Of a stretch of 41,159 nucleotides of DNA, positions 14,706 to 26,331 are shown one piece after another; position 1 is the stretch's first letter, and every line of letters begins with the position of its first letter. The notes beneath the pieces are model-generated. The model worked only from the letters and a program-made list of their open reading frames with translations, was not told the DNA's origin and ran no database searches. The DNA comes from a virus, in IMG/VR virus record IMGVR_UViG_3300050134_000023, positions 1 to 41,159 of that record. One strand, 5' to 3'. The position numbers and the translations under genes were made by a program.

Positions 14706-14741
14706 TTTTCCTATCGAAAATTCCGACTTTCGTGGTAGTAT
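14706..14741 (+). promoter_or_regulatory. Conserved-box promoter, copy A (tRNA cluster I)
   Basis: TTTTCCTATC (14706-14715), exactly 17 bases, then extended -10 TGGTAGTAT (14733-14741). The same box, spacing and extended -10 occur before tRNA cluster II, the gene at 17037 and the minus-strand operon at 39648. The box covers about -41 to -33 and does not resemble the usual -35, so it may need a phage activator or other sigma factor. The predicted start is near 14748. Confidence 0.7.
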
Positions 14742-14747
14742 GTAGTA

Positions 14748-14761
14748 GGTGAGCAATCACC
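14748..14761 (+). promoter_or_regulatory. 5' hairpin with GCAA tetraloop
   Basis: GGTGA, loop GCAA, TCACC sits at the predicted 5' end of the cluster I leader RNA. Such hairpins often protect RNA ends from decay. It lies just before the leader ORF at 14772. Confidence 0.5.
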
Positions 14762-14771
14762 GAAAGACATT

Positions 14772-14855
14772 ATGACCCGTTTAACCCTATCATCGTTGCG
14801 ACTGTATAGCTACCTTAGTGGCTTCAGCGGCGGTGTGTTCGAGGGGTTGAACTAA
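14772..14855 (+). CDS. Candidate Leu/Tyr leader peptide of tRNA cluster I, 27 aa
   Basis: Residues 4-15 read LTLSSLRLYSYL: five Leu and two Tyr in twelve codons, with a sixth Leu at residue 26. The Leu codons are TTA, CTA, TTG, CTG, CTT and TTG, and Tyr uses TAT and TAC. The tRNAs just downstream are Tyr and Leu, with anticodons matching all of these except TTA. The ORF lies between a promoter and a terminator and ends inside an antiterminator arm, the layout of classical amino-acid attenuators. The ribosome-binding site is weak (GAAAG). Confidence 0.7.
   Translation: MTRLTLSSLRLYSYLSGFSGGVFEGLN
14808..14823 (+). promoter_or_regulatory. Possible pause hairpin within leader I
   Basis: AGCTAC (14808-14813) pairs with GTGGCT (14818-14823) around a CTTA loop, with one G-U pair. 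It contains the Tyr TAC and Leu CTT codons of the leader ORF, like the polymerase-pausing hairpin in amino-acid attenuators. Confidence 0.4.
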
Positions 14856-14881
14856 TTAGACCCGAGTTCGAACAAGCCGCC
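14829..14881 (+). promoter_or_regulatory. Antiterminator of tRNA cluster I
   Basis: GGCGG (14829-14833) pairs with CCGCC (14877-14881), and TGTTCGA (14836-14842) with TCGAACA (14868-14874), enclosing GGGT/ACCC. The 3' arm contains the 5' arm of the terminator at 14874, so only one can form. The leader ORF's stop codon lies in the loop. Confidence 0.65.
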
Positions 14882-14899
14882 TGAAAAGGCGGCTTTTTT
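14874..14899 (+). terminator. Intrinsic terminator before tRNA cluster I
   Basis: AAGCCGCC, loop TGAAAA, GGCGGCTT, then T residues to 14899: a perfect 8-bp stem and U-tract 20 bases before the first tRNA. Its placement between the leader ORF and the tRNAs makes it an attenuator candidate. Confidence 0.85.
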
Positions 14900-14918
14900 C
14901 ATTTGTACTGAGAGTTTT

Positions 14919-15007
14919 GCATGGTTGGGTGAGCGGTTAAAGCCAACTGCCTGTAAAGCAGTCCCTCCTAGCGAGGTTCGTAGGTTCGAATCCTACACCA
15001 TGCACCA
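14919..15007 (+). tRNA. tRNA-Tyr (GTA), canonical
   Basis: Acceptor GCATGGT/ACCATGC, anticodon stem ACTGC/GCAGT, loop CTGTAAA, long variable arm (CCTC/GAGG), T arm GTAGG/CCTAC, A73 and encoded CCA. All arms pair well. It is the first gene after the terminator. Confidence 0.92.
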
Positions 15008-15012
15008 AGTTT

Positions 15013-15102
15013 GGGTGATCGACGTAGTTGGAGAGACGTGGCAGGCTGTAACCCTGCGGCCCCTAGCGGGCCTAGGGGGTTCGAATCCCTCCTCACCCAC
15101 CA
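15013..15102 (+). tRNA. tRNA-Tyr (GTA), second divergent copy
   Basis: Anticodon stem GCAGG/CCTGC with loop CTGTAAC, long variable arm GGCCC/GGGCC, D stem ACGT/ACGT and encoded CCA. Oddities are a T7-C66 mismatch, C instead of T at position 8, and C38. It shares the GTA anticodon with its neighbour but little other sequence, so it is not a recent duplicate. Confidence 0.8.
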
Positions 15103-15146
15103 AAGATCGACACGAGTTCCCGATAATCGGAAAATCGGACAGAGAT

Positions 15147-15236
15147 GTGTTCATGGCGAAACTGGCAGACGCGACGGGCTGAGAGTCCGTTGGGGCTGAT
15201 ACCCCCGTGGAGGTTCAAGTCCTCTTGGGCACACCA
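15147..15236 (+). tRNA. tRNA-Leu (GAG), divergent
   Basis: Acceptor GTGTTCA/TGGGCAC has two G-U pairs, anticodon stem ACGGG/TCCGT, loop CTGAGAG, T arm GGAGG/CCTCT, and CCA is encoded. The anticodon is GAG if the loop has seven bases. It duplicates the decoding of the canonical copy at 15371. Confidence 0.8.
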
Positions 15237-15242
15237 ATTTTG

Positions 15243-15365
15243 ATGTGCTTTATTACATCAGGTCGGTGGTTTGATGCAATAAAGTATATCGAAGATGACA
15301 GGGAACTGGTATACCAGTCCGTAAATGTCATTTTCACTGAAATAGGATTTTCAACAGGTTGTTGA
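15243..15365 (+). CDS. Small ORF between two Leu tRNAs, 40 aa
   Basis: Hand translation from ATG 15243 gives 40 residues beginning MCFITSGRWFDAIKY. It fills the gap between two tRNA genes, six bases after one CCA and five before the next tRNA, with no ribosome-binding site; its message could be released by tRNA 3' processing. A perfect 14-base palindrome lies at 15304-15317. TGATGT...ACATCA and CTTTATT...AATAAAG compete near its start. Coding status is uncertain. Confidence 0.4.
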   Translation: MCFITSGRWFDAIKYIEDDRELVYQSVNVIFTEIGFSTGC

Positions 15366-15370
15366 AACAT

Positions 15371-15454
15371 GCGGCTGTGGTGGAATGGTATACACGTATG
15401 CTTGAGGTGCATATCCCGCGAGGGATGGAGGTTCGAGTCCTCTCAGCCGCACCA
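15371..15454 (+). tRNA. tRNA-Leu (GAG), canonical
   Basis: Acceptor GCGGCTG/CAGCCGC pairs perfectly. Anticodon stem TATGC/GCATA with loop TTGAGGT, the same loop as the E. coli GAG tRNA. CCA is encoded. The hairpin TTTCAACA-GGT-TGTTGAAA lies directly upstream. Confidence 0.93.
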
Positions 15455-15461
15455 AAGTTTT

Positions 15462-15548
15462 GCCGGGATGGTGGAATTGGTAGACGCACCGCGTTCAGAG
15501 CGCGACGAGGGAAACCTCATGGGGGTTCGAGTCCCCCTCCCGGCACCA
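15462..15548 (+). tRNA. tRNA-Leu (CAG)
   Basis: Acceptor GCCGGGA/TCCCGGC, anticodon stem CCGCG/CGCGA (outer pair mismatched), loop TTCAGAG, long variable arm, T arm GGGGG/CCCCC and encoded CCA. It reads CTG. Confidence 0.92.
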
Positions 15549-15556
15549 AAACTCAG

Positions 15557-15562
15557 TATTGA
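15557..15562 (+). promoter_or_regulatory. Promoter-like TATTGA, second 17-base copy
   Basis: CCAAAACTCAGTATTGA overlaps the CCA end of the preceding tRNA and repeats the block at about 3670-3686 exactly. It lies just before the ATG at 15569. Confidence 0.35.
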
Positions 15563-15568
15563 ACCTAT

Positions 15569-16033
15569 ATGGTATGTGAAAATTGTGAAGGTTCAAATGA
15601 CGGGTTGTACGGCAGCGGTCGATTCTGTTCACAGAAATGCGCTCGTGGGTTCGCTACGAAATCGAAGCGAGCGGACATTAGTCAGCGAGTTTCCGCGAAG
15701 CTCCGTGGGCGATTGATAGGAACTGCACAGATGAGAGTGGGGCCTGACGCAAGACGTGACAAACTCTTTCAGAACGGGCATTTCTCATCAGAGGCTCAGA
15801 GCAAACGCCGTAAGGATCAGATCGCGACTGAAACGTCGATGGCGGTTCAGATGGAGGCAGAAGGCTTCAAGATGTACCCGCCTTCGGTCGTCTGTGATCG
15901 GGTCGCCGTCAAGGACGGAAAAGTTTTCTTCGTGGAGTTTAAGAAGCACTCAGGACAACGGCTGAGGCCCGGGCAACAAAACGTGCGTGATCTCGCACCT
16001 GAGATGTACTTGATTCGGTATTTGCAACTTTAA
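15569..16033 (+). CDS. Zinc-finger plus PD-(D/E)XK-like nuclease, 154 aa
   Basis: The N-terminal finger (CENCEGSNDG, then GSGRFCSQKCARGFATK and KLRGR) is shared with the HNH protein at 16488. The C-terminal half (SVVCDRVAVKDGKVFFVEFK) has a D, then E-x-K pattern of the PD-(D/E)XK/VRR-NUC nuclease class. It lies inside the tRNA array and its stop codon directly abuts the next tRNA. There is no ribosome-binding site. It is probably a homing nuclease. Confidence 0.7.
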   Translation: MVCENCEGSNDGLYGSGRFCSQKCARGFATKSKRADISQRVSAKLRGRLIGTAQMRVGPDARRDKLFQNGHFSSEAQSKRRKDQIATETSMAVQMEAEGFKMYPPSVVCDRVAVKDGKVFFVEFKKHSGQRLRPGQQNVRDLAPEMYLIRYLQL

Positions 16034-16119
16034 GTCGGAATGGTGGAATTCGGCAGACACACCTGTCTCAAAAGCAGGCGTCGAAAGACGTGAGGGTTCA
16101 AGTCCCTCTTCCGACACCA
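16034..16119 (+). tRNA. tRNA-Leu (CAA), canonical
   Basis: Acceptor GTCGGAA/TTCCGAC, anticodon stem CCTGT/GCAGG, loop CTCAAAA, long variable arm, T arm GAGGG/CCCTC and encoded CCA. It begins on the base after the preceding gene's TAA. It reads TTG. Confidence 0.93.
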
Positions 16120-16133
16120 AATTTACTCGAAAC

Positions 16134-16245
16134 GCCATGTTTACTGGGCAGTGGATATCGCCCTCGGAGTGAACATGGCTTAATCGGCACATTTTGACCG
16201 ATTAGACAACGAGTTACAGGTTTAATCGGCACAAAGATGCCGATT
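16134..16245 (+). repeat. Three stacked hairpins and a 12-base repeat before tRNA-Leu(TAG)
   Basis: GCCATGTT (16134-16141) pairs with AACATGGC (16172-16179) around an inner GGGC/GCCC. Two further hairpins follow, TAATCGG/CCGATTA (16181-16204) and AATCGGCA/TGCCGATT (16224-16245), both built on the direct repeat TTAATCGGCACA. They fill the whole gap and may be processing sites or tRNA remnants. Confidence 0.6.
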
Positions 16246-16247
16246 AT

Positions 16248-16326
16248 GCGTGGGTGACGGGAATTGGCATACCTCAGTGATTTAGAATCACTGGCTTTAG
16301 GGGTTCGAAGCCCCTCTCACGCACCA
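16248..16326 (+). tRNA. tRNA-Leu (TAG) with a short variable arm
   Basis: Acceptor GCGTGGG/CTCACGC, anticodon stem AGTGA/TCACT, loop TTTAGAA, T arm AGGGG/CCCCT and encoded CCA. The variable region is short although leucine tRNAs normally have a long arm, so charging may be unusual. Confidence 0.85.
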
Positions 16327-16384
16327 ATTTTGTACAACCTTCGCGGGTTTCCGAGAAACATGAACACGCGGAAATCTTGTACAT

Positions 16385-16463
16385 GCCCGAGTGGTCAAAT
16401 TGGCAAAGGCGCTCGTCTCAAAAGCGAGAGATTCTGTGGGTTCGATCCCCACCTCGGGCACCA
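16385..16463 (+). tRNA. tRNA-Leu (CAA), second copy with a short variable arm
   Basis: Acceptor GCCCGAG/CTCGGGC, anticodon stem CTCGT/GCGAG, loop CTCAAAA, T arm GTGGG/CCCAC and encoded CCA. Same decoding as 16034 but with a short variable region. The gap upstream (16330-16384) folds with TGTACA at both ends and GTTTC/GAAAC inside. Confidence 0.85.
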
Positions 16464-20724: not shown

Positions 20725-20799
20725 ATGAACACAATGCGACCAACTCCGATGTTTCGACCGTGCATCTACCCTATGGTGCGTGGGGGAGACGTTCTGTAA
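20725..20799 (+). CDS. Candidate Pro/Met leader peptide of tRNA cluster II, 24 aa
   Basis: Residues 4-17 read MRPTPMFRPCIYPM: four Pro and three Met in 14 codons, plus the start Met. The Pro codons are CCA, CCG, CCG and CCT. The downstream tRNAs are Pro with anticodons TGG, CGG and GGG, plus one Met, so every Pro codon used has a matching tRNA in the cluster. An in-frame ATG at 20734 is an alternative start. The ribosome-binding site is poor. The stop codon lies in the loop of a small hairpin. Confidence 0.6.
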   Translation: MNTMRPTPMFRPCIYPMVRGGDVL

Positions 20800-20838
20800 G
20801 AACGCTTTATACCCCGCGCTGCCAAGCGATTTCGGGGT
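20778..20838 (+). promoter_or_regulatory. Competing hairpins before the first Pro tRNA
   Basis: Form 1: GCGTGGGG (20778-20785) with CCCCGCGC (20812-20819), enclosing CGTTC/GAACG. Form 2: ACCCCG (20811-20816) with CGGGGT (20833-20838) plus CGCT/AGCG inside. CGGGGT is the 5' acceptor strand of the first Pro tRNA, so form 2 should stop that tRNA folding. There is no clear U-tract. Confidence 0.5.
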
Positions 20839-20919
20839 GTAAATCGGTAGTTGGGAGCCGACCCGCTTTGGAAGCGGGAGATAAGATCACTGGGAGTTCG
20901 AATCTCCCCACCCCGACCA
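20833..20919 (+). tRNA. tRNA-Pro (TGG)
   Basis: Acceptor CGGGGTG/CACCCCG, anticodon stem CCCGC/GCGGG, loop TTTGGAA, T arm GGGAG/CTCCC and encoded CCA. C1-G72 with A73 matches bacterial Pro identity. The variable region is somewhat long. Confidence 0.92.
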
Positions 20920-20961
20920 AAATTTAGATGTACCCGCTCTGCGAAAGCATCGGGCCTGTTT

Positions 20962-21051
20962 CGGTGTATAGAACGGTAATCCGGTAGCCGTCTCGCTTCG
21001 GATGCGAGTGTCAATACGACCCTAGAGGTTCAAATCCTCTTACGCCGACCA
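20962..21051 (+). tRNA. tRNA-Pro (CGG)
   Basis: Acceptor CGGTGTA/TACGCCG with one G-U, anticodon stem CTCGC/GCGAG, loop TTCGGAT, T arm AGAGG/CCTCT and encoded CCA. C1-G72 as in the other Pro tRNAs. A hairpin CCCG...CGGG lies directly upstream. Confidence 0.9.
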
Positions 21052-21070
21052 AATTTTTCGACTTCGACCG

Positions 21071-21076
21071 TATTAG
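21071..21076 (+). promoter_or_regulatory. Promoter-like TATTAG before the HNH gene
   Basis: CGTATTAGTATAGAGG lies 17 bases before the ATG at 21094. It resembles other GTATTAG sites in the window. Confidence 0.35.
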
Positions 21077-21093
21077 TATAGAGGTACGGTCGA

Positions 21094-21561
21094 ATGGAAA
21101 TATGCAATTGCGGTAACGAGGTTGAAAAGCTCATCGTCGAGCTTTGCCCGCGTTGTTATAAACGGGCCTCGAAGCAAAGAGAACGTAATAAACCCGGAGC
21201 TAAAGAACATCGTCGGGCGCTAGATCGAGTATGGTGTGCAGTACGAAAGGAAGAATTAGCGTCATACCGACAGCAACGAACGCAGAACTTGAAGATGAAA
21301 GCTTTCGCCCTGTTAGGAAGCAAGTGCTCGTGGGCTGGATGTACGTGGGATGATCCGCGAGCTTTGCAGATAGATCATGTCAACGATGACGGGAGTGAAG
21401 AAAAACGAACACTCGGCAATAATCAACCATCGTTGTATATTCGAGTGATTAAAGCGACTTCGCAGCATGAGGAACCGCAATTGAAATACCAGCTTCTCTG
21501 CGCCAACCATAACTGGGTGAAAAGGTGCGAGAAGGAAAGTGCTAGGCGGAAAATCGCCTAA
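21094..21561 (+). CDS. HNH-type endonuclease inside tRNA cluster II, 155 aa
   Basis: A finger CNCGNE...CPRC at the N-terminus, then a basic helical linker, then CSWAGC, LQIDHVNDDGSEEKR and YQLLCANHNW. It is related to the nucleases at 10935 and 19126, with the last Cys replaced by His. It sits between Pro tRNAs and its 3' end forms a CGCCTAA/TTAGGCG hairpin. Confidence 0.8.
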   Translation: MEICNCGNEVEKLIVELCPRCYKRASKQRERNKPGAKEHRRALDRVWCAVRKEELASYRQQRTQNLKMKAFALLGSKCSWAGCTWDDPRALQIDHVNDDGSEEKRTLGNNQPSLYIRVIKATSQHEEPQLKYQLLCANHNWVKRCEKESARRKIA

Positions 21562-21593
21562 GGTGGTTTTAGGCGGTAAACCGTATAAAGATT

Positions 21594-21668
21594 CGGTGTG
21601 TAGCGCAGCGGTAGCGCACTTGTCTGGGGGACAAGGGGTCGCGAGTTCGATCCTCGCCACGCCGACCA
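21594..21668 (+). tRNA. tRNA-Pro (GGG)
   Basis: Acceptor CGGTGTG/CACGCCG, anticodon stem CTTGT/ACAAG, loop CTGGGGG, T arm GCGAG/CTCGC and encoded CCA. It reads CCC and CCT. Confidence 0.92.
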
Positions 21669-21673
21669 TTTAG

Positions 21674-21741
21674 TGGATGCTTTGCGGTCGTCAGACCGCG
21701 AGGAGTGGACAGGGGGTTCAGAATTCTCTCCCCGCATCCCA
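21674..21741 (+). pseudogene. tRNA-like remnant
   Basis: GGATGC/GCATCC closes the element, GCGGTC/GACCGC forms an internal arm, and a T-arm-like GGGGG/CTCCC has an enlarged 11-base loop. There is no usable anticodon arm and no full CCA. It is probably a decayed tRNA between two intact Pro tRNAs. Confidence 0.45.
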
Positions 21742-21747
21742 GAGTTT

Positions 21748-21824
21748 CGGCGATTAGCGCAGCCCGGTAGCGCACCTGCCTTGGGCGCAGGGGGTCGGGG
21801 GTTCAAATCCCTCATCGCCGACCA
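21748..21824 (+). tRNA. tRNA-Pro (TGG), second copy
   Basis: Acceptor CGGCGAT/ATCGCCG, anticodon stem CCTGC/GCAGG, loop CTTGGGC, T arm GGGGG/CCCTC and encoded CCA. It duplicates the anticodon of 20833 but differs elsewhere. Confidence 0.93.
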
Positions 21825-21840
21825 ATACCGAGGAAGGCGT

Positions 21841-21909
21841 ATGAATGCTGGGGCGGTGTTCGAACAGGTGAGTTCAATGCTCACTTCATACGCCATCGGA
21901 ATTTACTAA
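21841..21909 (+). CDS. Possible 22-residue peptide with its start in a hairpin
   Basis: GAGGAAGG lies just before the ATG. The ATG is within GGCGTATGA (21836-21844), which pairs perfectly with TCATACGCC (21886-21894) inside the same ORF, and a GTGAG/CTCAC arm with a seven-base loop lies within. The shape also resembles a tRNA acceptor plus T arm, so this may be a decayed tRNA rather than a gene. Confidence 0.35.
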   Translation: MNAGAVFEQVSSMLTSYAIGIY

Positions 21910-22099
21910 TTTTTCGAGAATGCTCGCAGTAGCGGGCTCGTAAGATGGCAGCTTGTCAGTAGGGTCGCCCGCAGGGGCGGTGGGAGTAGTACCGAACGCA
22001 GGGTGGTCACCATCTTCTCGAAACCGTTGGCTACGTCGGATTCGTCCCCGGCAGGGGATGATTGGGAGCACGACTGGCGTTCACTGGCGGTAAGAGTTT
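21910..22099 (+). ncRNA. Structured RNA region between two Pro tRNAs
   Basis: TCGAGAA (21914-21920) pairs with TTCTCGA (22015-22021); AAGATGG (21942-21948) can pair with CCATCTT (22010-22016), sharing bases; CGCCC-GCAG-GGGCG lies at 21966-21979. Only ORFs of 5-11 codons are present. No known RNA family is recognised. Confidence 0.4.
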
Positions 22100-22176
22100 C
22101 AGGGTGTAGCTCAGCTTGGTAGAGCGCACGCTTCGGGAGCGCGAGGTCGGAGGTTCAAATCCTCTCACCCTGACCA
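22100..22176 (+). tRNA. tRNA-Pro (CGG), second copy
   Basis: Acceptor CAGGGTG/CACCCTG, D stem GCTC/GAGC, anticodon stem CACGC/GCGCG with one mismatch, loop TTCGGGA, T arm GGAGG/CCTCT and encoded CCA. Confidence 0.9.
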
Positions 22177-22276
22177 TTTTATGGGGTTTTTGAGAAAACT
22201 CGTGGCTCTTTTCCAGCGAAAGCAGTATCGTCCTATAGGGACTTGGTAAATACCGAACCCTATATAAGAGGGACAC

Positions 22277-22630
22277 ATGGCAAAGATTCGTGTCGGCGTG
22301 GACGGTCACGAGAAGGTTGACGTAAAGACCTTTGACCCGTGGAAGAAAGCCGCAGAGAAGGGCGAGAAGATTTCGTTCATCGACGTGTGGCTGGCCGAGA
22401 GCCCGGTGACCTTGGAAGAGAAAGCCGATGCTGCACGTGAGGTCGAGCATCTCACCAAGCTGGCGGGCGGTAACGACCTCTACCAAGGATTTGAAGCGGA
22501 GCTTGCCGAGATCAAGAGCAAGCCGTTTGATGAAGTTCTGAAAGAGCAGGGACAGATTGAACTTTCGGAAGATACCGCTGATGCGGCACCGAAGGCAAAG
22601 AAAGCAACTGCATTCTTCCCTGATTTTTAA
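22277..22630 (+). CDS. Hypothetical protein, 117 aa
   Basis: GAGGG precedes the ATG. A charged, mostly helical protein with a Lys/Ala-rich segment (DAAPKAKKATA) before a short FFPDF tail. Not recognised. It lies between the Pro tRNAs and the Met tRNA, and a GGGGAGTCG/CGATTCCCC hairpin follows at 22659-22681. Confidence 0.65.
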   Translation: MAKIRVGVDGHEKVDVKTFDPWKKAAEKGEKISFIDVWLAESPVTLEEKADAAREVEHLTKLAGGNDLYQGFEAELAEIKSKPFDEVLKEQGQIELSEDTADAAPKAKKATAFFPDF

Positions 22631-22686
22631 GATTCACCTACCACGTGTAGGAGGAACTGGGGAGTCGATCTTCGATTCCCCTCAAT

Positions 22687-22763
22687 GCCTGCGTAGCTCA
22701 ATTGGCTAGAGCAGCGGTCTCATAAGCCGAAGATGTGGGGTTCAAATCCCCTCGCAGGCACCA
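22687..22763 (+). tRNA. tRNA-Met (CAT), elongator-type
   Basis: Acceptor GCCTGCG/CGCAGGC, anticodon arm with loop CTCATAA, T arm GGGG/CCCC and encoded CCA. G1-C72 pairs fully, unlike bacterial initiator tRNA, so it is elongator Met, or Ile if the C34 were modified to lysidine. Confidence 0.9.
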
Positions 22764-22771
22764 AATTTCTT

Positions 22772-22842
22772 TAGCGTGACGCCCAGCGGAACGGCACCCT
22801 CTTTCAAGAGGAAGGACGTGGGTTCGAATCCCTCCACGCTAA
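22772..22842 (+). pseudogene. Degenerate tRNA-like element (TTC or TCA anticodon)
   Basis: Acceptor TAGCGTG/CACGCTA, D stem GCC/GGC and a T arm (GTGGG/CCCTC, one mismatch) are present. The anticodon arm is CCTC-TTTCAA-GAGG with only six loop bases, and no CCA is encoded. Depending on how the loop is read, the anticodon is TTC (Glu) or TCA (UGA). It is most likely a decaying gene. Confidence 0.5.
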
Positions 22843-23209
22843 AGCGCAACATCGCTGCTGCGGTAACGGAACCGACTCCTGTTATCAGTTAGCTTAATTG
22901 GCTCGGCCAGCAGCAAAAGTTTGAGCAGAACACATCGCTCCTGTTCTTTGCGTAATTTCCCGCTCGACTAGCCGTGAACGTAGATGCACTGCGGAGACGT
23001 TCGTTGTAAGCCGCCTAGTCCGGGTTGGCAGGGATGCTACGAAGCCCGATGAGCAGCCGCAAGGCTAAAGTCCACTGCCATTTCAAGTTTTAGGGAAGTC
23101 GGGAGTCTGCGGACCCTTCCGAGGCTATAGCGCCGAAGCAAGCAGAGGCGATTAACTGCCCAAACACAGTATCGGATACCCGACAATTCAAACCAAGGAG
23201 GACGAGCAG
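22843..23209 (+). other. Non-coding stretch with strong stem-loops
   Basis: No convincing gene. GCTGCTG pairs with CAGCAGC around a D-arm-like TTAGCTTAATTGG. GACTAG (22966-22971) pairs with CTAGTC (23015-23020) around GAACGT/ACGTTC. TGGCAG (23026-23031) pairs with CTGCCA (23075-23080) around AGCC-GCAA-GGCT. These look like tRNA remnants or an unknown RNA. A 22-codon ORF from 22984 overlaps them without a ribosome-binding site. Confidence 0.45.
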
Positions 23210-26085: not shown

Positions 26086-26139
26086 ATGATCCGTATCCAC
26101 CGCATTCTCGACTTGTTTACCAGCCCCTCTCGGGGCTAA
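26086..26139 (+). CDS. Possible 17-residue leader peptide before Phe tRNAs
   Basis: MIRIHRILDLFTSPSRG starts almost on the preceding stop. It contains one Phe codon, three Ile and two Leu. Its last codons form AGCCCC-TCTC-GGGGCT (26132-26147), 8 bases before the first Phe tRNA. This is a weak parallel to leaders I and II, as Phe is not enriched and there is no U-tract. Confidence 0.25.
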   Translation: MIRIHRILDLFTSPSRG

Positions 26140-26155: not shown

Positions 26156-26232
26156 GGGTCGGTAGCTCAGCCCGGTAGAGCGCAGCCCTGAAGAGGCTGG
26201 CGTCGGGGGTTCAAATCCCTCCCTTCCCACCA
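26156..26232 (+). tRNA. tRNA-Phe (GAA), acceptor with mismatches
   Basis: Anticodon stem CAGCC/GGCTG, loop CTGAAGA, D stem GCTC/GAGC, T arm GGGGG/CCCTC and encoded CCA. The acceptor GGGTCGG/CCTTCCC has mismatches at 4-69 and 5-68, which may reduce function. Confidence 0.82.
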
Positions 26233-26255
26233 AATTTCCACATACAATTGAATAT

Positions 26256-26331
26256 GGGAACGTAGCTGATGGGGTCTTAGCACCCGCCTGAAAACCGGGA
26301 GATGTCAGTTCGACTCTGACCGTTCCCACCA
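26256..26331 (+). tRNA. tRNA-Phe (GAA), second copy
   Basis: Acceptor GGGAACG/CGTTCCC pairs perfectly. Anticodon stem CCCGC/CCGGG has one inner mismatch, loop CTGAAAA, T arm GTCAG/CTGAC, CCA encoded. It complements the acceptor-defective copy upstream. Confidence 0.85.

Follow-up and report, generated by a model that had tools for sequence, protein, structure and literature searches.

Leader peptides with the anatomy of transcription attenuators precede tRNA gene clusters in huge phages

The tRNA operons of the phage described here and of its relatives are, judged from their sequences, very probably controlled by ribosome-mediated transcription attenuation, in which leader peptides with a menu of codons would sense shortage of the operon's own tRNAs. 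The window (the whole stretch of DNA that was analysed) is a virus record of 41,159 bases, G000, containing three tRNA clusters. The jumbo phage Tunturi_5 of Acidobacteriota is a relative (DNA polymerase identity 45%). A search of bacterial genome contigs for the host yielded a single distant match.

The elements of the Leu/Tyr operon, all on the plus strand, were as follows.

14733 to 14741, plus strand: putative extended -10 promoter element (TGG TAGTAT), from sequence reading; the promoter scan was silent.
14772 to 14855, plus strand: Leu/Tyr leader peptide ORF, 27 codons and a stop, kept in relatives with in-frame indels.
14787 to 14816, plus strand: regulatory codons CTA..TTG.CTG TAT.TAC CTT, one per tRNA type in cluster I.
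14828 to 14849, plus strand: antiterminator 5' arm (segment 2), within the 3' end of the ORF (z -3.7).
14858 to 14881, plus strand: antiterminator 3' arm (segment 3), overlapping the terminator 5' arm.
14874 to 14899, plus strand: intrinsic terminator (segment 3:4), a hairpin at 14874-14895 and then a U tract.
14919 to 16463, plus strand: tRNA cluster I (Tyr, Tyr, six Leu), with an inserted ORF.

The leader ORF was located exactly where an earlier sequence-only reading had placed it, with six Leu codons (TTA, CTA, TTG, CTG, CTT, TTG) and two Tyr codons (TAT, TAC). It encodes MTRLTLSSLRLYSYLSGFSGGVFEGLN, followed by the stop. The anticodons of cluster I were GTA for both Tyr tRNAs and GAG, GAG, CAG, CAA, TAG and CAA for the Leu tRNAs; all leader Leu codons except TTA therefore have a cognate anticodon, as had been claimed. 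A promoter at 14706 had also been proposed. The promoter scan called none there and the site is uncertain, the putative extended -10 at 14733-14741 having a poor -35. Elements resembling TGGTATTAT were present upstream of many related leaders. Several leader start codons (G003c, G005a and others) lay only approximately 8-15 nt past a -10-like element, and translation from almost leaderless transcripts is therefore possible for these leaders. The leader region was also considered as a tRNA remnant, and this was rejected, no tRNA being called there by ARAGORN or Rfam. ORFs interrupt the tRNA clusters of the window (15569-16033, 21094-21561 and elsewhere), and some of those inserted between tRNA genes look HNH-type endonuclease-like by their Cys/His patterns, without profile support.

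Terminator and antiterminator had been described as mutually exclusive, and this was borne out, the terminator 5' arm being common to both. The antiterminator (14828-14849:14858-14881) was predicted at -28.6 kcal/mol, compared with -17.3 for shuffles (z -3.7, 0/300). Folding of the whole Leu/Tyr leader region was better than that of 200/200 shuffles (z -3.1). A ribosome was then imposed on the fold. At the stop codon it gave P(terminator) 0.75 and P(antiterminator) 0.00; at codons 11-15 it gave P(terminator) 0.04-0.26 and P(antiterminator) 0.68-0.87. Folding thus reproduced the proposal that a stall at codons 11-15 would free the antiterminator and that a ribosome at the stop would block it.

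A polymerase profile identified approximately 30 related records, of which 16 were fetched whole and all their tRNA clusters mapped. In total, 51 leaders were catalogued in 17 related phage records. Comparison with relatives had been named as a check on the Leu/Tyr leader; the relatives keep its ORF, Leu/Tyr codons, terminator and antiterminator. Promoter-like sequence, ORF, terminator and tRNA-Tyr follow in the same order in G003 and G002 (neighbour gene identity to the window 77% and 56%, respectively), whose leader peptides are MTHVTLSPSLRLYSLYLSYRRGGVFKG and MNRVFLASLRLYSYLSGGFGERVRWRGW. Insertions in the Leu/Tyr leaders of relatives are multiples of three. The antiterminator sequence differs in relatives with its pairing kept, TGTTCGA:TCGAACA becoming TGTTCAAA:TTTGAACA. 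Three further records matched the Leu/Tyr leader alignment with strong scores in a per-genome profile search.

The same architecture was found in the cultured phage Tunturi_5. A leader beginning MKTLCLSSYCLSSSLSLSDGWDL lies upstream of its Leu-Cys-Tyr-Ser cluster, and one beginning MQHVSTFRFAVPATAGNPAGQQGTNAC lies upstream of its Asn-Gln-Gly-Thr-Pro-His-Ala-Phe cluster (Asn is our interpretation of a tRNA whose anticodon ARAGORN called incompletely). In G019 the leader MRNRKPNPMQWQPKRHFSRPSFGGLPFAP lies upstream of a His, Arg, Asn, Lys, Phe, Met, Pro, Gln, Trp cluster and covers 16/16 of its isoacceptors. No recognisable leader was found for several Ala/Val/Gly/Asp clusters, for CTA-anticodon tRNAs or for the 40-tRNA cluster of G012.

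Across all related records the tRNA operons are sorted by amino-acid group, and the sorting is mostly conserved in the clade. The groups are Ile/Thr/Gln; Val/Ala/Gly/Asp/Glu/Cys; Leu/Tyr; Ser; Pro/Met/Phe; and His/Arg/Asn/Lys/Gln/Trp. Two or three CTA-anticodon tRNAs, possible amber suppressors, are carried by G002 (L011), G003 (L022), G005 (L017) and G015, apparently without a menu leader. An apparent intein-like insertion (start CLAPSTRLLT, end HNC) was noted in the polymerase of one relative (L010 2870-6967).

The match between leaders and tRNAs was assessed by permutation. For each cluster the best upstream small ORF was scored for the amino acids of that cluster, and the null was maximised identically. 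The match over 63 clusters was 143.9, compared with a null of 57.0 +/- 6.7 (0/100,000 permutations), and with one cluster per type it was 53.8 compared with 19.7 +/- 4.5 (0/200,000). ORFs chosen solely by their position before a terminator scored 101.9 compared with 26.3 +/- 6.6 (0/20,000). In the 51 curated leaders, 96.9% of isoacceptors had a codon in their own leader and 49.9% when clusters were swapped; these leaders were chosen partly by composition and the figure is therefore descriptive. Synonymous codons lean modestly towards the isoacceptors of the cluster (116/148 compared with 102.9 expected, z 2.7). Codon-position evidence for leader translation was weak, with 34 third-position changes compared with 23 first- and 21 second-position changes.

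Ten unrelated tRNA-rich phages (T4, a T5-like phage, KVP40, phiCbK, RpAliso, Mendera, Kaldavass, S-SRM01, Viktualia and PJN02) were used as controls. Their 40 clusters gave no leader signal (35.3 compared with 34.8 +/- 4.3), and the ORF-terminator geometry was present in only 3 of these clusters. Small ORFs are abundant in every frame, and one close to a tRNA cluster might resemble a leader merely by chance or compositional bias. This explanation carries next to no weight against permutations with identical maximisation, the choice of ORFs by geometry alone and ten signal-free control phages; a chance match was refuted by the permutation tests and the controls. Chance is excluded also because the same ORF, terminator and order of tRNAs are seen again in relatives and the leader-tRNA match is far beyond permutations. 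The attenuation logic of the sequence-only reading was supported, since leaders of other clusters match their own tRNAs and leaderless phages serve as negative controls. That reading had concerned the Leu/Tyr operon; in these phages the system is a general one, not peculiar to that operon.

All leaders are short conserved ORFs and some are hydrophobic, properties that would also be expected if they encoded small functional peptides, such as membrane peptides or toxins, and matched the tRNAs only incidentally. We regard this as very improbable. The peptides of different clusters have no common sequence, yet all match their own tRNAs, and the tail of the ORF encodes the antiterminator arm and not a conserved peptide.

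An intrinsic U-tract terminator was found between the leader ORF and the first tRNA gene in 38/51 leaders, including that of the window Leu/Tyr operon. Among these 38, the last part of the ORF can pair with the terminator 5' arm and the adjoining sequence (complementarity mean z -3.29 compared with dinucleotide shuffles), and the pairing segment finishes anywhere from 17 nt upstream to 9 nt downstream of the stop codon. The distance from stop to terminator was 19-26 nt in 33/38. From these positions relative to the stop, a ribosome at the stop would mask the antiterminator arm. By equilibrium folding, mean P(terminator) over all leaders was 0.87 with the ribosome at the stop and 0.63 with it stalled. 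The terminator prevailed in many leaders despite a stalled ribosome, and switching was not evident for each; many leaders must therefore depend on co-transcriptional folding.

The unrelated megaphages LR745206, LR756501 (735 kb), LR756502 and LR756504 have the same architecture, with U-tract terminators and antiterminators. Their antiterminator complementarity had a mean z of -3.30 (14 leaders), some of the 14 being no better than shuffles. In LR745208 (485 kb) the leader match was 22.5 compared with 11.1 +/- 2.2 (p 5e-5); its leaders lie 6-50 nt upstream of the tRNA and no U-tract terminator was found. Read by eye, MNQHLHHHCY precedes its Tyr-Cys-His cluster. Near copies of LR745208 added no diversity. 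No menu leaders were found in the huge phages LR756508 and LR756511, and together with the ten negative phages these rule out a general trait of tRNA-rich phages. AT-rich and GC-rich versions of the leaders have no evident common sequence, and descent and convergence are both possible. A DNA similarity search of named phages matched mostly tRNA bodies.

The two other tRNA clusters of the window are also preceded by leaders, with the following elements.

20725 to 20799, plus strand: Pro/Met leader ORF MNTMRPTPMFRPCIYPMVRGGDVL and stop (CCA, CCG, CCG, CCT and ATG codons).
20778 to 20785, plus strand: Pro-leader switch arm A (GCGTGGGG), which pairs with arm B.
20812 to 20819, plus strand: Pro-leader switch arm B (CCCCGCGC), which can pair with either A or C.
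20833 to 20837, plus strand: Pro-leader switch arm C (CGGGG), the first bases of tRNA-Pro in the window phage.
20833 to 22843, plus strand: tRNA cluster II (five Pro, Met, Leu).
26086 to 26139, plus strand: Phe leader ORF MIRIHRILDLFTSPSRG and stop, with conserved core LDLFT.
26122 to 26137, plus strand: GC hairpin directly after the Phe codon of the Phe leader.
26156 to 26331, plus strand: tRNA cluster III (Phe, Phe).

In the window, neither the Pro nor the Phe leader has a U-tract terminator before the first tRNA, and Pro leaders mostly lack a U tract. The Pro stems A:B and B:C are mutually exclusive, and both are kept by compensating changes in 10 phages (CCCCG:CGGGG, CCTCG:CGAGG, TCCCG:CGGGA). 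In the window as well as in G023 and G005, arm C coincides with the 5' acceptor strand of the leading tRNA-Pro, so the output of the Pro leaders there may be tRNA processing; the double role of this strand suggests that folding or processing of the tRNA is controlled directly. Menu leaders might accordingly sense tRNA shortage without using intrinsic termination, their alternative hairpins acting instead on RNA processing, on entry of Rho or on how the first tRNA folds. Such a reading is favoured by the perfectly kept Pro stems without a U tract, by the identity of arm C and by the terminator-less leaders of LR745208 close to their tRNAs. We think it unlikely, given U-tract terminators at a fixed distance in 38 clade and 14 megaphage leaders, including Leu/Tyr. 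Where the U tract is missing, leaders could still act by something other than termination.

The attenuation reading rests on features present in the DNA itself: the ORFs with their matched codons, the terminators and the pairing that excludes them, conservation in relatives and compensating substitutions in the stems. Promoter use and transcription start, leader translation, stalling and read-through are inferred in the absence of expression data. In the proposed mechanism, transcription would begin just upstream of the short leader ORF, whose early codons would form a menu of the tRNAs of the operon. With all aminoacyl-tRNAs present, the ribosome would trail RNA polymerase to the stop and cover the antiterminator arm; the terminator 19-26 nt downstream would form and transcription would end before the tRNAs. 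If any one tRNA were scarce, the ribosome would pause at its codon and leave the arm free to pair with the terminator 5' arm, and the entire tRNA cluster would be transcribed. The array would in effect be an OR gate, replenishing the tRNA pool as needed. The trigger might be an anticodon nuclease, the decay of host tRNAs or simply demand. The virus would probably sense which tRNAs run short and turn on just that cluster.

Classical amino-acid starvation sensors, with tRNA genes as incidental targets, would be a variant differing in signal. The mechanism is the same as in amino-acid operons, and sequence cannot separate charging from tRNA abundance, so this variant deserves some consideration; we nevertheless doubt it. 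Up to nine amino acids appear in a leader, with isoacceptors sampled separately (16/16 in G019), and the controlled genes yield tRNA and not amino acids. Because isoacceptors are sampled separately, tRNA supply fits better than supply of a single amino acid.

Ribosome-mediated attenuators are known for the amino-acid operons trp, leu, his, thr, ilv and pheA (Elf and Ehrenberg 2005, PMC1183508). The phage leaders resemble these (PMC1183508) in having a leader ORF with regulatory codons, an arm common to antiterminator and terminator, and ribosome position as the switch. They differ in that they control tRNA genes and not enzymes, take up to nine amino acids with separate isoacceptors, occur in phages as several different leaders per genome and have the antiterminator arm within the end of the ORF. 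In the E. coli pheST attenuator a leader peptide governs a component of the translation apparatus (Phe-tRNA synthetase), which we take to be a parallel to the phage leaders. It differs in that its product is an enzyme, a single amino acid is involved and the system is bacterial. T-box riboswitches likewise control aminoacylation-linked genes and sense uncharged tRNA, but do so by direct tRNA binding via specifier and T-box elements, without translation. A T-box was rejected here, as there was no Rfam match and cmscan of the window at gathering scores returned tRNAs only; Rfam attenuator leader families likewise had no match at gathering score.

Phage tRNA arrays have been treated as an answer to codon bias or to tRNA-cleaving defence (PMC10264068, PMC11555353). 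Those papers concern the same genes and tRNA supply in infection, and not conditional control; PMC10264068 does not mention a leader or attenuation, nor does the Tunturi paper (PMC11924767). No account of phage or bacterial tRNA genes attenuated through a leader peptide was found in the literature searched, which excluded most subscription journals and is no proof. The claim that no phage tRNA cluster with such control has been described met no earlier description to contradict it. The anatomy is that of trp/leu/his attenuation; as far as we found, the target, the multi-input sensing and the distribution are new.

The reasons why phages carry tRNAs have been debated for decades. It is likely that several unrelated lineages of huge phages have tRNA operons sorted by amino acid, each with a menu attenuator reading every isoacceptor, which would amount to genome-wide tRNA homeostasis and possibly counter-defence. 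If the leaders work as their anatomy implies, the phage itself reports when tRNAs are needed and which ones, and ideas of codon supply and anti-defence would become directly testable. As far as found, this would be the first case of tRNA genes under feedback control by the translation of the codons that they serve; the leaders would also be naturally occurring multi-input tRNA sensors, and Tunturi_5 offers a cultured example. They may also serve as a counter-defence, making good the loss of any tRNA that the host destroys.
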